Positions 14,239 through 18,256 of a DNA stretch of 64,000 bases are shown here, piece after piece. The translations under genes and the position numbers were made by a program. Location of the stretch: NCBI RefSeq assembly GCF_011170125.1, contig NZ_BLLN01000003.1, positions 1,054,001 to 1,118,000 on the forward strand, written 5' to 3'. The stretch comes from Streptomyces diastaticus subsp. diastaticus. GTDB taxonomy: Bacteria > Actinomycetota > Actinomycetes > Streptomycetales > Streptomycetaceae. The notes beneath the pieces are model-generated. The model saw only the letters and a program-made list of their open reading frames with translations, did not search any database and had not been told where the DNA came from. The first letter of the stretch is position 1. Every line of letters starts with the position of its first letter.

Positions 14239-14904
14239 TCAGCCGGCCTTCGGCATCAGCACGGTGTCGACGATGTAGACGGTGGCGTTGGCGGTCGGCA
14301 CGTTGCCGCAGACGACCTCGGAGTCGTCGTTGACGGTGTAGTCCGTGCCGGAGCCCATGGTGGTGAGCTTGCTCTTCTCCAGCGTCTCGAAGGAGCCGTC
14401 CTCCAGCTGCTTCGGGGTCAGCTTCTGGCCGACCACGTGGTAGGTGAGGACCTTGGTCAGCTCCTCCTTGTCGGCGAGGAGCTTGTCGAGGTCGGCCTTG
14501 GGAATCTTGGCGAAGGCGTCGTTGGCCGGCGCGAAGACCGTGATGTCCTCGGCGTTGTTCAGGGTGTCGACCAGACCGGCCTTCCTGACCGCGGTGACCA
14601 GTGTGGACAGCTCGGGGTTGTGCGACGCGGCGGTGGCGACCGGGTCCTTGGCCATGCCGTCGAAGCTGCCCGCGCCCTCCTTCGGCACCGAGGAGCACGC
14701 CGGGCCGAACGGCTCGGCCGGGACCTGCGCCTTGTCCGCGCCCTCGGAGCCCGTGGACTTCTCCGGACTCTCCTGCGAGGCGGCCGACGACGGCGACTCG
14801 GCCGCCTTGTCGCCGCTCTCGCCGGAGCAGGCCGCGAGACTCACGGGCAGGACCACGGCGGCGGCGACGGCGACGGCGGTACGGCGGACACGGGTGGTGA
14901 ACAT
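14239..14904 (-). CDS. Fasciclin (FAS1) domain lipoprotein
   Basis: A 221-residue secreted lipoprotein. The signal peptide RRTAVAVAAAVVLPVSLAAC ends in a lipobox LAAC. A Ser/Glu/Ala-rich linker follows (residues 25–65), then one FAS1 domain (NPELSTLVTAVRKAGLVDTL, the VFAPANDAFAKIP motif H1, and the YHVVGQKL and VYIVDTVLMP parts). FAS1 proteins act in surface adhesion. The M. tuberculosis relatives MPT70 and MPT83 belong to the SigK regulon, and here the gene shares a strand with sigK, rskA and the molybdoenzyme, so it is a likely member of the same regulon. I see no SigK-type promoter directly before it, so it may be read from the molybdoenzyme promoter. Confidence 0.93.
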   Translation of the reverse strand: MFTTRVRRTAVAVAAAVVLPVSLAACSGESGDKAAESPSSAASQESPEKSTGSEGADKAQVPAEPFGPACSSVPKEGAGSFDGMAKDPVATAASHNPELSTLVTAVRKAGLVDTLNNAEDITVFAPANDAFAKIPKADLDKLLADKEELTKVLTYHVVGQKLTPKQLEDGSFETLEKSKLTTMGSGTDYTVNDDSEVVCGNVPTANATVYIVDTVLMPKAG

Positions 14905-15046: not shown

Positions 15047-16645
15047 TCAGTCCACGCTGACCACCACCGAATGGAGGCCGGTCGCGCCGTCGGGCACGGT
15101 GCCCTGACGGCGGGAGGTCTGCCGGGCGCCGGTGGCGTCGGTGGCCCGCACCTCGAGGGTGTGGCTGCCCCGGGTCGCGGGCCAGTCCCAGACCCACTGG
15201 CGCCAGGTGTCGGGACTGGCCTGGGCGGCGAGACGCGCCTCCTGCCACGGGCCGCCGTCCACGCGCGTCTCGACCCGGCGGATGCCGCGGTGCTGCGCCC
15301 ACGCCACCCCGGCGACCCGCACGGTGCCCGCGCGGAGCCGGGCGAAGGCGCGCGGTGTGTCGATCCGCGCCTGGGTCTTGACGGGCGCCTCGCGGGCCCA
15401 GTTGCGCTCGACCCAGTACGGGTCGAAGGCGTCGAAGGTGGTCAGCTCCAGCTCCTGGAGCCACTTGCAGGCGGAGACGTAGCCGTACAGGCCCGGCACC
15501 ACCATGCGGAGCGGGAAGCCGTGCCGGAAGGGAAGCGGTTCACCGTTCATGCCGACCGCGAGCATCGCGTCCCGGCCGTCCATGACGGTGTCGACCGGGG
15601 TACCGATGGTCATGCCGTCGACCGACCGGGAGACGAGTTGGCCGGCGGGGCCGCCCCGGGACGGCGGCCGGACCCCGGCCTCCTCCAGCAGCGGACCCAG
15701 CGGTACGCCGAGCCAGCGGGCGCTGCTCACGTACGGGCCGCCGACCTCGTTGGAGACACAGGTCAGGGTGATGTCCCGCTCGATCAGGTCGCGGCGCAGC
15801 AAGGTGGGGAGGTCCAGCTCCAGCGGGCGGCGGACCCCCTCGCCGTGCACCTTGAGCCGCCAGCTCCCGACGTCCACGCGCGGGACGACCAGGGCGGTGT
15901 CGACGCGGTAGAAGTCGCGGTTCGGGGTGGTGAAGGGGCTCAGGCCGGCCACCCGGGGGCGGGCCCGGGCCGGGACCGGCCGGGCGGGCGAGGCCGGCCT
16001 CGGCAGTCGTACCCCGGCCCGGGACGCCTCCGCGTCGGCGGCGCCCGAGCCCCCGAGCCGGCGCCCGGCGAACCCGGCCCCGGCCGACACCGCCGCCGAC
16101 GCCCCGGCCGCCAGGACGAAGCCGCGCCGGTCGAGGGCGGCCCGGCCGCCCGGAGGTTCCGTCGTGCCCGCACCCGACGGGGTGAGGCGGCCGGCGAGCA
16201 GCCACAGCACACCGGCGCCCGCCACCGCGCCACCCGCCGAGGGGAGCGCGTCGAGCCATCCGGCACCGGGCCGGCTGAGCGCCGCCACGGTGCCGAGGAG
16301 GCCGAACAGCAGGACTCCCGCGACTCCCGCGGGGCGGTGACGGCGGGCCACCAGCCCGACGGCGGCGGCGAAGAGAGCCAGCAGGACGAGGATGCCGCCG
16401 AGCAGCACCAGCTTGTCGTCGTCGCCGAAGGCGCGGATCGCCCAGTCCTTGACCTCCACCGGCGTCCGGTCGACCACGGCGCCGCCGACGGCGGTGACGG
16501 GGCTCGACTCGGGGCGTACGGCCGCCGAGAGGAGTTCGCCCGCGCAGAGGGCCGCGAACGCGGCGAGCACCCCGGACAGGGCGGCGAGCGCGGCCCGGGC
16601 CGGCCGGGTGCGCCTGAGCGGTGCGGTGCTCGTCTCCTGGTTCAC
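15047..16645 (-). CDS. Membrane-anchored molybdopterin oxidoreductase, sulfite-oxidase fold
   Basis: A 532-residue protein in two parts. Residues 1–170 hold about four to five hydrophobic helices. They are followed by DRRGFVLAAGASAAVSAG (near residue 172), a twin-arginine-like stretch and helix, then the catalytic domain: RVDTALVVPRVD, WRLKVHGEG, and ITLTCVSNEVGG, where the Cys is the expected molybdenum ligand. A C-terminal Mo-co dimerisation domain follows (GVAWAQHRGIRRVETRVDGGPW). It is expected to face outside and reduce or oxidise sulfur compounds, possibly MsrP-like. GTG start is 6 nt after a CGAATA box of SigK type. It sits between sigK-rskA and the fasciclin gene. Confidence 0.92.
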   Translation of the reverse strand: MNQETSTAPLRRTRPARAALAALSGVLAAFAALCAGELLSAAVRPESSPVTAVGGAVVDRTPVEVKDWAIRAFGDDDKLVLLGGILVLLALFAAAVGLVARRHRPAGVAGVLLFGLLGTVAALSRPGAGWLDALPSAGGAVAGAGVLWLLAGRLTPSGAGTTEPPGGRAALDRRGFVLAAGASAAVSAGAGFAGRRLGGSGAADAEASRAGVRLPRPASPARPVPARARPRVAGLSPFTTPNRDFYRVDTALVVPRVDVGSWRLKVHGEGVRRPLELDLPTLLRRDLIERDITLTCVSNEVGGPYVSSARWLGVPLGPLLEEAGVRPPSRGGPAGQLVSRSVDGMTIGTPVDTVMDGRDAMLAVGMNGEPLPFRHGFPLRMVVPGLYGYVSACKWLQELELTTFDAFDPYWVERNWAREAPVKTQARIDTPRAFARLRAGTVRVAGVAWAQHRGIRRVETRVDGGPWQEARLAAQASPDTWRQWVWDWPATRGSHTLEVRATDATGARQTSRRQGTVPDGATGLHSVVVSVD

Positions 16646-16651
16646 ATCGGG

Positions 16652-16679
16652 TATTCGGCGCCCCGGCTGCCAGGGATTG
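16652..16679 (-). promoter_or_regulatory. SigK-type promoter before the molybdoenzyme
   Basis: On the minus strand CAATCC (16679–16674), a 16-bp spacer, and CGAATA (16657–16652). The published mycobacterial SigK consensus is CCATCC, 16–17 bp, CGAATA. The -10 ends 6 nt before the GTG start, so the mRNA is probably leaderless. Confidence 0.7.
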
Positions 16680-16785
16680 GTCTGTCACCCGACGGAGTGA
16701 GGACTTTCTTCCCGTGACCGCCGCGACCTGCTGCTTCCTCAGGTCGTGGCGTGCCTCGCGGAGCTGACGGCGCGGAGAGTCGGAA

Positions 16786-16824
16786 CCGCCCCCGTCCACC
16801 GGGACAGCGGGTGGACGGGGGCGG
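16786..16824 (-). terminator. Terminator after sigK-rskA
   Basis: Perfect 15-bp stem (16786–16800 and 16810–16824) with a 9-nt loop, just after the rskA stop. It separates the sigma operon from the molybdoenzyme promoter. Confidence 0.8.
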
Positions 16825-16844
16825 CGGCGGAGGCTGCCGACGGG

Positions 16845-17600
16845 TCAGGCCGGCAGGTCGAGCAGGCCGATCGGGTCGGAGGACGGCCGGCGGGAGCCGC
16901 CCGGCGGTTCGACGGTGATGCCGACACCGGACGCCTCGCCGACGCCGCCCTCCAGGCGGACGGCCTCGACGCCGTCGCCCCGGGAGGGCGGCATCACTCC
17001 GGCGGAGCGCATGGTGCCGCCGTCGTCGAACCAGAGCTGGTAGACCTTCCCCGCGGGCGGCGCGGGCAGGCCGGCCGCGAGCAGCACCGCCTCGTCCAGC
17101 GAGGCCGAGACGACGACCGTGGCGCGGCTGCCGGAGTCCAGCCGGGCCGACTGCGAGCGGGCGTCGGGCGCGGCCAGCACCCGGGCCACCGAGGCGGCCT
17201 GGCGCTCCGCCGCCTCGGCCCGCTGCCGCGCCTGCTCGGCCTCCTGGTGCTGCCAGACGGCGACACCGCCGAGCCCGGCCGCGACGGCGAGGCAGGCGGC
17301 GAGCGCCAGGCCGGTGAACCGGCGGGCCCGGCCGGGCCGTCGCGCGGAGTCCACGGCGGTCGTGCGAGGCGGCTCCTGGCGCACCTCGCCGATGCGGCGC
17401 ATCACCCGGTCCTTCATCTCCGGCGGCGCGTCGGCGGTCTCGGCGAGCCCCAGCCGGGCCGCCGTGGCGGTGAGCTCGGCGACCTCGGTGGTGCAGGCCG
17501 GGCAGTCCGCGAGGTGACGGTCGAAAGCGGCCCGCTCCTCGTCGTCCAGGGCGTGCAGCGCGTAGGCGCCGGTCAGCGTGTGGAGTTCGGCGGTGGTCAT
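16845..17600 (-). CDS. rskA: Membrane anti-sigma factor RskA
   Basis: A 251-residue anti-sigma factor. The N-terminal cytoplasmic ZAS domain has the motif FDRHLADCPAC (His-x3-Cys-x2-Cys), followed by an amphipathic region. One transmembrane helix lies near residues 92–112 (FTGLALAACLAVAAGLGG), and the rest is an extracellular RskA C-terminal domain (KVYQLWFDDGGTMRSAGVM). It holds SigK inactive until regulated proteolysis releases it. It overlaps the sigK stop by 4 bp (ATGA), fixing sigma and anti-sigma in near-equal synthesis. Confidence 0.93.
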   Translation of the reverse strand: MTTAELHTLTGAYALHALDDEERAAFDRHLADCPACTTEVAELTATAARLGLAETADAPPEMKDRVMRRIGEVRQEPPRTTAVDSARRPGRARRFTGLALAACLAVAAGLGGVAVWQHQEAEQARQRAEAAERQAASVARVLAAPDARSQSARLDSGSRATVVVSASLDEAVLLAAGLPAPPAGKVYQLWFDDGGTMRSAGVMPPSRGDGVEAVRLEGGVGEASGVGITVEPPGGSRRPSSDPIGLLDLPA

Positions 17601-18181
17601 ACGCTCACCCCCAGGCAGTCGCGCAGCCGGATCAGGCCGTCGCGCAGGCGGGTCTTCACGGTGCCGAGCGGCACCGTGAGCAGTTCGGCGACCTCGCGGT
17701 AGGCGAGGCCGCGGTAGTACGCGAGGCTGACCGACTCGCGCTGGAGCTCGGTGAGGGCGCGCAGGCAGCGGCGCACCTGCTCACGCTCCAGCCGGGTCTC
17801 GACCTGCTCGGCGACCTCGTCGAAGGCGGGGGTGCGGTCGAGCAGGGCGGCCCGCTCCTCGCGGTCGGCGGCGGCCTGCGCGGAGCGGACCCGGTCGACG
17901 GCGCGGCGGTGCGCCAGCGTCAGAACCCACGTCATCACGGATCCCTTGGCGGGCCGGTAGCGCGCGGCGGTGCGCCACACCTCGACCAGCACCTCCTGGG
18001 CGACCTCCTCCGACTGGGCCGGGTCGCGCAGCACCCGGCGGACCAGACCGAGGACCGGTCCCGCCACCGCTTCGTACACGGTGGTGAAGGCGTCCCGGTC
18101 GCCGACGGCGACCTGGCCCATCAACGCCTCCAGGTCGGGCGCCGCCGAGGGGGGCGGGCCGATGTGGACGGGTTCCTTCAC
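17597..18181 (-). CDS. sigK: ECF sigma factor SigK
   Basis: A 194-residue ECF sigma factor of the SigK/SigL group. Region 2 spans about residues 30–95 (VLRDPAQSEEVAQEVLVEVW and GSVMTWVLTLAHRRAVDRVR), and region 4 about residues 130–185 (LTELQRESVSLAYYRGLAYREVAELL, PLGTVKTRLRDGLIRLR). The GTG start has GGAG 5 nt upstream. A SigK-consensus promoter lies about 50 bp before the start, so it should activate itself. The operon with rskA and the neighbouring molybdoenzyme and fasciclin genes matches the SigK–RskA–MPT70/83 logic known from mycobacteria. Confidence 0.94.
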   Translation of the reverse strand: MKEPVHIGPPPSAAPDLEALMGQVAVGDRDAFTTVYEAVAGPVLGLVRRVLRDPAQSEEVAQEVLVEVWRTAARYRPAKGSVMTWVLTLAHRRAVDRVRSAQAAADREERAALLDRTPAFDEVAEQVETRLEREQVRRCLRALTELQRESVSLAYYRGLAYREVAELLTVPLGTVKTRLRDGLIRLRDCLGVSV

Positions 18182-18228
18182 GCGTACTCCTTCGCCGGGT
18201 CCGGGCGCAGCAGGGCCACTGCTCGAGG

Positions 18229-18256
18229 AATTCGGGGCGGAGGGCGAGGCGGATGG
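18229..18256 (-). promoter_or_regulatory. SigK-type promoter before sigK
   Basis: On the minus strand CCATCC (18256–18251), 16-bp spacer, CGAATT (18234–18229). The -35 matches the mycobacterial SigK consensus exactly and the -10 at 5 of 6 positions. The position fits autoregulation of sigK-rskA. Confidence 0.7.

Follow-up and report, generated by a model that had tools for sequence, protein, structure and literature searches.

In mycobacteria, the extracytoplasmic function (ECF) sigma factor SigK and its anti-sigma factor RskA govern a regulon made up of sigK-rskA, the Rv0449c operon and mpt70/mpt83/dipZ. A section of PMC7509140 describes SigK sites as conserved in Actinobacteria (citing Veyrier 2008) and reports that SigK proteins from other species can use the mpt70 promoter, that the M. 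tuberculosis SigK-RskA pair is redox sensitive via two cysteines and that the activating signal of SigK is unknown, mycobacteria included. A second described system is that of sigma-E and ChrR (ECF11) in R. sphaeroides. In the passage of PMC7074977 that tabulates the singlet-oxygen regulon of RpoE and ChrR, the entries include rpoE-chrR, cfaS, phrA, RSP_1090/1091 and a fasciclin protein, RSP_1409; furan-fatty-acid synthesis genes are counted among the conserved core genes of the sigma-E/ChrR regulon in part of PMC6852236, and a fast reaction of the ChrR zinc site with singlet oxygen is stated in part of PMC6432622. Here we analyse a stretch of 64,000 nucleotides from Streptomyces diastaticus subsp. 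diastaticus (contig NZ_BLLN01000003.1, positions 1,054,001 to 1,118,000; "the window"), in which one SigK-type site precedes a sigK gene and a second precedes the gene for a membrane molybdopterin oxidoreductase (MoOx). We put at roughly 0.86 the probability that both sites work as SigK promoters, with a leaderless MoOx message reading through into a fasciclin gene, the operon headed by the flavoenzyme gene FADox as a probable further target, and MoOx as an old core target of SigK.

SigK-type sites in the window

Both sites lie on the minus strand, along which the gene order is sigK (18181..17597), rskA (17600..16845), MoOx (16645..15047) and a fasciclin lipoprotein gene (14904..14239). CCATCC-N16-CGAATT (18229..18256) stands 5' of sigK, where it would serve autoregulation, and CAATCC-N16-CGAATA (16652..16679) stands 5' of MoOx. 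These are exactly the two motifs named in the initial annotation, each with a 16-nucleotide spacer. By weight matrix they receive the two highest scores in the window, 24.3 for the sigK site and 27.6, the top value, for the MoOx site; the next score is 10.3. The SigK-type consensus used was derived from Streptomycetaceae loci and may differ from the mycobacterial SigK consensus.

Across the whole 7.08-Mb genome, CMATCC-N15..18-CGAAT has two matches, both being these sites, and a reversed control pattern has none. Assuming independent bases, the chance expectation per genome is about 7 matches for N15-18 and 1.9 for N16, and that for the window is 0.07. Since about two N16 matches are thus expected from composition and two are seen, the count was set aside as proof and carries little weight; placement and conservation bear the argument. 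A mere chance resemblance of short strings in a GC-rich genome, which the expected number taken by itself would allow, is very improbable, as it is contradicted by position, conservation and geometry, with controls. What chance does not account for is the placing of both sites within 1.6 kb, in front of sigK and the gene next to it, and their recurrence in relatives.

Conservation of the sites in Streptomycetaceae

For comparison we used the best 80 of 409 Streptomycetaceae relatives, as named loci selected for carrying sigK, and counted strict sites (CMATCC-N-CGAAT type, within -300..+60 of gene starts). Such sites stand 5' of sigK in 50/80 loci, of MoOx in 20/32, of FADox in 20/30 and of the fasciclin gene in 4/21. 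None was found before rskA (0/79), DUF1365 (0/36), CMAS (0/40), DUF1295 (0/40) or photolyase (0/34) genes, and one of 29 genes for a siderophore-interacting protein has one. When n was scanned from 10 to 24, the 101 strict CMATCC-Nn-CGAAT pairs of these loci had n=16 (94 pairs) or n=17 (7 pairs), and none had a spacer of 10-15 or 18-24.

The weight matrix was trained on the strict SigK and FADox sites, so that the matrix counts for these two genes are not independent of training; the MoOx sites were kept out of it and form an independent test. At score 15 a site is found before 29/32 MoOx, 77/80 sigK and 29/30 FADox genes, while 1 of 3000 control windows reaches this score, true-site regions being excluded. 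The motif recurs in relatives at the very place where the initial annotation had put it, 5' of MoOx. One control window (L040:9810) scored 30 and is of SigK type; it may be a real site and a possible further target.

In a scan of the genus, 149 of 150 genomes, the present one included, carry the pattern, mostly several times, versus 0-3 occurrences for the control. The lone Streptomyces genome without the motif (G133) also lacks SigK at 1e-30 and DUF1365, and its MoOx matches are weak (best 1.8e-20). This joint absence bears on whether another ECF sigma factor of overlapping specificity also uses the sites, SigK then not being their main regulator in vivo. Streptomyces genomes encode many ECF factors. 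Promoter sharing has moreover been described among SigB-like sigma factors of S. coelicolor in a passage of PMC9205884, whose "SigK" is a SigB-like protein different from the one considered here. We nevertheless regard such a substitution as unlikely, given that motif, SigK and DUF1365 are lost together in G133, that sigK itself is preceded by the site in 77/80 loci (by a matrix partly trained on these), and that site and SigK co-occur across genomes, as detailed below.

SigK, RskA and the probable end of their message

The sigK gene (17597..18181, minus strand) encodes an ECF sigma factor of group ECF19, 194 amino acids long, from a GTG start with a Shine-Dalgarno run of 6. The protein passes the curated NCBIfam model NF007228 (294 bits, cut-off 226); its closest solved protein is M. 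tuberculosis SigK (4nqw, E 2e-49, 49% identity) and the next-best solved relative is R. sphaeroides sigma-E (2q1z). Aligned with 4nqw, the redox cysteines C133 and C183 of M. tuberculosis SigK fall on C139 and C189. Both cysteines are recovered by pattern in 79/80 relatives, and the remaining one shows both in its sequence.

The adjoining gene rskA (16845..17600, minus strand), which overlaps sigK by 4 nucleotides, carries the Pfam domains RskA_C, RskA_N and zf-HC2. The N- and C-terminal RskA domains (PF22618 and PF10099), both above cut-off, together with this position beside sigK, mark its product as the anti-sigma-K factor RskA. Helix 1 of the protein, HTLTGAYALHAL, fits at 10/12 letters the motif HTLAGAYALDAL, given in part of PMC7406223 as a feature of the AS19-1 anti-sigma group. 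An HxxxCxxC motif is present in RskA here, in 79/79 loci of the family and in 14/14 loci of the wider class.

Downstream of rskA, between sigK-rskA and MoOx, lies a hairpin of 16 consecutive pairs (16785..16825, minus strand), a probable terminator; the 83-nucleotide stretch has a z of -3.58 relative to shuffles, with 0/200 shuffles equally stable. The hairpin would end the sigK-rskA message and would explain why MoOx needs a promoter of its own.

A predicted leaderless MoOx message and the fasciclin gene

MoOx (15047..16645, minus strand; 532 amino acids, GTG start) is a membrane-anchored molybdopterin oxidoreductase of the sulfite-oxidase fold (Pfam Oxidored_molyb), for which N-terminal membrane helices are predicted by a model. 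At the Streptomycetaceae sites, the -10 hexamer is followed at a distance of exactly 6 nucleotides by an ATG or GTG in 28/29 MoOx cases, as against 1/29 for FADox and 3/77 for SigK. The Shine-Dalgarno run is at most 3 nucleotides long in all 28 MoOx genes with this +6 start, and reaches 4 or more in 53/61 sigK and 11/11 fasciclin starts that could be placed. The MoOx start in the window has no Shine-Dalgarno sequence, and transcription is predicted to begin at the first base of its GTG start codon (16645). The +6 start codon and the lack of a Shine-Dalgarno run together lead us to predict that the MoOx mRNA is leaderless.

The fasciclin gene (14239..14904, minus strand) starts 142 nucleotides downstream of MoOx. 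The initial annotation took its product for an MPT70/83-like member of the regulon. Its family is borne out by the Pfam Fasciclin domain, by a lipobox LAAC read in the protein sequence and by the structural relatives, among which the closest solved protein is TGF-beta-induced protein ig-h3 and the best bacterial one MPT70 (1nyo, E 6e-34). As to membership, the gene has no SigK site of its own in the window, where the best matrix score before it is -16.4, and a separate promoter was accordingly rejected. Across family loci, scored here with an earlier version of the matrix, 5/5 fasciclin genes that do not come immediately after MoOx have a site, as against 0/16 of those that do. The MoOx-fasciclin gap in the window shows no structure beyond shuffles. 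Because the fasciclin gene lacks a site, the gap is unstructured and the pattern in relatives is either/or, the MoOx promoter probably serves both genes, and fasciclin is here probably cotranscribed from it. A candidate terminator downstream of fasciclin was rejected (z -1.49, 16/200 shuffles equally stable). Part of a survey (PMC1949818) mentions fasciclin and molybdopterin-oxidoreductase domains fused in some secreted enzymes.

A probable third target in trans

FADox is followed by DUF1365, CMAS and DUF1295 in a gene run that we take to correspond to mycobacterial Rv0449c-Rv0446c. The FADox site is directed away from the MoOx site in the 8 loci carrying both strict sites. In the present genome the operon lies on another contig behind CAATCC-N17-CGAAGA (G000:C2:1090715, L114:4716; score 19.6), and SigK probably reads it in trans from this weaker site. 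A fourth site in the genome (G000:C2:813641, L256; score 18.7) has no convincing gene start behind it and is not claimed. Photolyase lies directly downstream of rskA on the same strand in 25 of the 34 family loci that have it; the photolyase gene of the present genome (G000:C5:1069157) is not beside sigK, and its 3.6-kb locus holds no site above score 5.

Similar cassettes are found on plasmids, where we read five neighbourhoods out of 74 DUF1365 records, picked partly by annotation, plus one in Tsukamurella that was found via SigK. On plasmids of Ensifer, Rhizobium and Azospirillum (L249, L250, L251), a sigma-70 factor and a ChrR anti-sigma factor are encoded close to a FADox-DUF1365-methyltransferase cassette, the methyltransferase of the third of these alphaproteobacterial cassettes being annotated simply as S-adenosylmethionine-dependent. 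On a Salinivibrio plasmid the cassette is accompanied by a photolyase and a MerR regulator, with no sigma factor in the stretch read, and on a Rhodococcus plasmid by neither. On the Tsukamurella plasmid, CCATCC-N16-CGAATG stands 5' of FADox, the first gene of a run that extends to sigK-rskA.

MoOx sites beyond Streptomyces

A plasmid of Arthrobacter YC-RL1 carries fasciclin-sigK-rskA-MoOx with CAATCC-N16-CGAAT 5' of both fasciclin and MoOx, and a Rhodococcus plasmid carries divergent CCATCC-N16-CGAAG sites 5' of MoOx and fasciclin; the matrix scores of these sites range from 20.7 to 24.0. Plasmid-record MoOx genes of Streptomyces NBC_01558 (19.6) and SAT1 (18.5) have sites by matrix, both with GTG at +6. 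The Arthrobacter plasmid with its two SigK-type sites (L119:3962-7885) is typed as mobilizable, and the module may travel.

For the class as a whole, searches drew 148 genomes for MoOx and 146 for SigK, and nine SigK absences were searched again (0/9 found). The loci examined were 30 supplied by the MoOx search and 60 stretches hand-chosen from its best matches, some similarly scoring ones being left out; the 90 became 77 on removal of one locus without a MoOx match (L215), two that were too short upstream (L172, L206) and 10 Streptomyces. In these 77 non-Streptomyces MoOx loci, a site is present in 33 at score 12 and in 24 at score 15, while 6 and 4 of 3000 control windows reach these scores. 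The site (score 12) accompanies 26/32 MoOx genes with a fasciclin or SigK neighbour versus 7/45 without (Fisher p 7e-9, relatedness ignored). When the best window is taken without a score threshold, an ATG, GTG or TTG lies at +6 in 29/32 versus 5/45. Counted per genome, a MoOx site is present in 31/47 with SigK versus 1/14 without, the single exception (G251) being listed as 80% complete. Own sites precede sigK in 2/16 class loci and fasciclin in 14/31; in several of these loci sigK is placed after fasciclin and may share its transcript.

Since site-bearing MoOx genes occur on Arthrobacter and Rhodococcus plasmids and in many, not all, of the class members examined, MoOx is not a Streptomyces extension of the regulon; it looks like an old core SigK target in actinomycetes. 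The initial annotation had proposed a conserved SigK/RskA regulon that was extended to the molybdoenzyme in Streptomyces. The regulon and the inclusion of the molybdoenzyme agree with the protein families, the controlled site conservation, the co-occurrence with SigK and the +6 geometry; the idea that this inclusion is a Streptomyces extension gives way to the sites found elsewhere in the class.

Several observations weigh against the reading of these sites as SigK promoters with MoOx as a core target. The genome-wide motif count is not above the simple composition-based expectation, and the sequences compared are related and hence not independent, which makes the p-values too strong. In the family, 3/32 MoOx genes have no site at score 15, and two of the five separate fasciclin sites (L013, L083) carry a GTG at +6 in the manner of MoOx; these two may be shared with, or left over from, another reading frame. 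The FADox site of the present genome is degenerate (N17, CGAAGA), and a FADox site is found in 0/3 other class loci. The class MoOx count falls from 33/77 to 24/77 between score 12 and score 15, and 16/47 SigK-bearing class genomes have no score-12 site before the MoOx copies fetched. Five of these 16, all from family f28 (L137, L144, L146, L150, L153), have degenerate site versions, with altered hexamers such as CAGTCC and the 6-nucleotide start distance kept, a pattern that suggests a shifted SigK specificity.

The plasmids add further counter-evidence. The Arthrobacter and Rhodococcus sites are without a +6 start, and 4 of the 7 plasmid-record MoOx genes first read have no site, namely those of Nonomuraea, Nocardia, Arthrobacter StoSoilB13 and M. 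abscessus, the start positions of the first three being estimates. Behind the M. abscessus plasmid MoOx (L120:6350-10251) come genes for an epimerase, a different sigma factor and a Rieske protein, and this related enzyme is perhaps under a different regulator. The module is absent from the stretches read around sigK-like loci of Frondihabitans (two plasmids), Arthrobacter MN05-02, Gordonia and Croceicoccus.

Proposed regulation and role

From the arrangement of sites and genes we infer the following for SigK binding, transcription, start point, termination, fasciclin read-through and physiological role. Release of SigK by RskA would render SigK RNA polymerase active at both promoters. The distal site would yield a sigK-rskA transcript, providing autoregulation, that ends at the hairpin after rskA; the second would yield a leaderless MoOx mRNA, with the G of GTG as its first base, that continues into the fasciclin gene; and the weaker site on the other contig would drive the flavoenzyme-DUF1365-CMAS-DUF1295 operon. 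The regulon would serve to defend envelope and membrane against oxidative, probably photo-oxidative, stress.

As to the signal, we favour photo-oxidative or lipid-peroxide stress as that which SigK answers, because the cassette occurs near sigma/ChrR pairs, members are shared with the sigma-E regulon, light and ultraviolet (UV) effects have been reported, and RskA carries HxxxCxxC. Among the shared members, RSP_1091/1090 presumably correspond to DUF1365/CMAS. In M. kansasii, light raises mpk83 and mpk70, which have putative SigK sites, according to a passage of PMC9861118, and UV lowers RskA in Nesterenkonia according to part of PMC8965627. Speaking against a photo-oxidative signal, the M. kansasii fasciclin response in that passage is small (6- and 3-fold) with dipZ, which lies between the two genes, unresponsive, and sigK, rskA and the fatty-acid operon do not appear in the passage of PMC9861118 that holds the light table. 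A wider proposal is tentative, at somewhat less than even odds: the actinomycete SigK/RskA regulon, the mycobacterial one included, may be the counterpart of the sigma-E/ChrR singlet-oxygen system, with a photo-oxidative or lipid-peroxide signal sensed via what the fatty-acid cassette makes, via the HxxxCxxC of RskA or via both, and with MoOx, from its leaderless mRNA, and fasciclin forming an extracytoplasmic arm for repair or detoxification.

The enzyme itself points partly elsewhere. By sequence, the closest solved proteins to MoOx are bacterial sulfite dehydrogenases, which a Foldseek search with the MoOx model also matches; this fold match adds little beyond the sequence, as the confidence of the model is low (mean predicted local distance difference test score, pLDDT, 68.8; predicted template-modelling score, pTM, 0.40). 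Cys296 of MoOx, at the position aligned with the sulfite oxidase-type cysteine, is invariant in 24 sequences. The module might thus be concerned mainly with sulfur or protein repair, MoOx oxidising sulfite or repairing oxidised methionine or another S-oxide outside the membrane and SigK sensing general or disulfide redox stress rather than light; the kept redox cysteines (those described for M. tuberculosis SigK in the section of PMC7509140) and the HxxxCxxC of RskA would suit this as well. We consider it doubtful, since MoOx scores below the curated cut-offs of SorA (107/600 bits), SoxC (98.5/420), SorT (74/570) and MsrP (37/207), and since sulfur repair alone does not explain the company of photolyase and FADox-DUF1365-CMAS.

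Should photo-oxidative defence prove to be the role, light plus a photosensitiser would be a simple test in harmless Streptomyces, and the MPT70/MPT83-like fasciclin proteins would gain a concrete functional hypothesis. An uncharacterised family of membrane molybdoenzymes is moreover placed in a regulon, given partner genes and predicted to be made from leaderless mRNA.

Comparison with known systems

Beyond the initial annotation, the analysis adds a probable third target in trans, the hairpin after rskA and the predicted leaderless MoOx start. Within the reach of our searches, the place of MoOx among the core targets, its leaderless geometry, the either/or arrangement of the fasciclin promoter and the cassette link to sigma/ChrR appear to be new. 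Literature titles and abstract openings gave no SigK-molybdoenzyme link; an earlier mention is possible, most likely in Veyrier 2008. In the part of PMC5885015 consulted, "SigK regulon" occurs and "molybdopterin" stands solely in a reference title.

MoOx has the Oxidored_molyb domain, the fold and the invariant cysteine in common with the sulfite oxidase, SorA and MsrP molybdoenzymes, and differs from them in its predicted membrane-anchoring N-terminal helices and in scoring below the family cut-offs. M. tuberculosis RskA is said in part of PMC7406223 not to depend on a zinc motif, whereas RskA here and in relatives keeps HxxxCxxC. As in the sigma-E/ChrR (ECF11) regulon of R. sphaeroides, a fatty-acid cassette and a fasciclin protein are among the targets; in contrast, the anti-sigma factor here is of RskA type, with no ChrR-type C-terminal domain by Pfam and 22.7 of the 124.5 bits required by the ChrR model, and MoOx is absent from the table passage of PMC7074977. 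The mycobacterial SigK/RskA regulon resembles the present one in its SigK and RskA, in the site before sigK and in having a fasciclin target. It differs in that here MoOx, with its predicted leaderless mRNA, is a target, and fasciclin lies behind MoOx without a site of its own.

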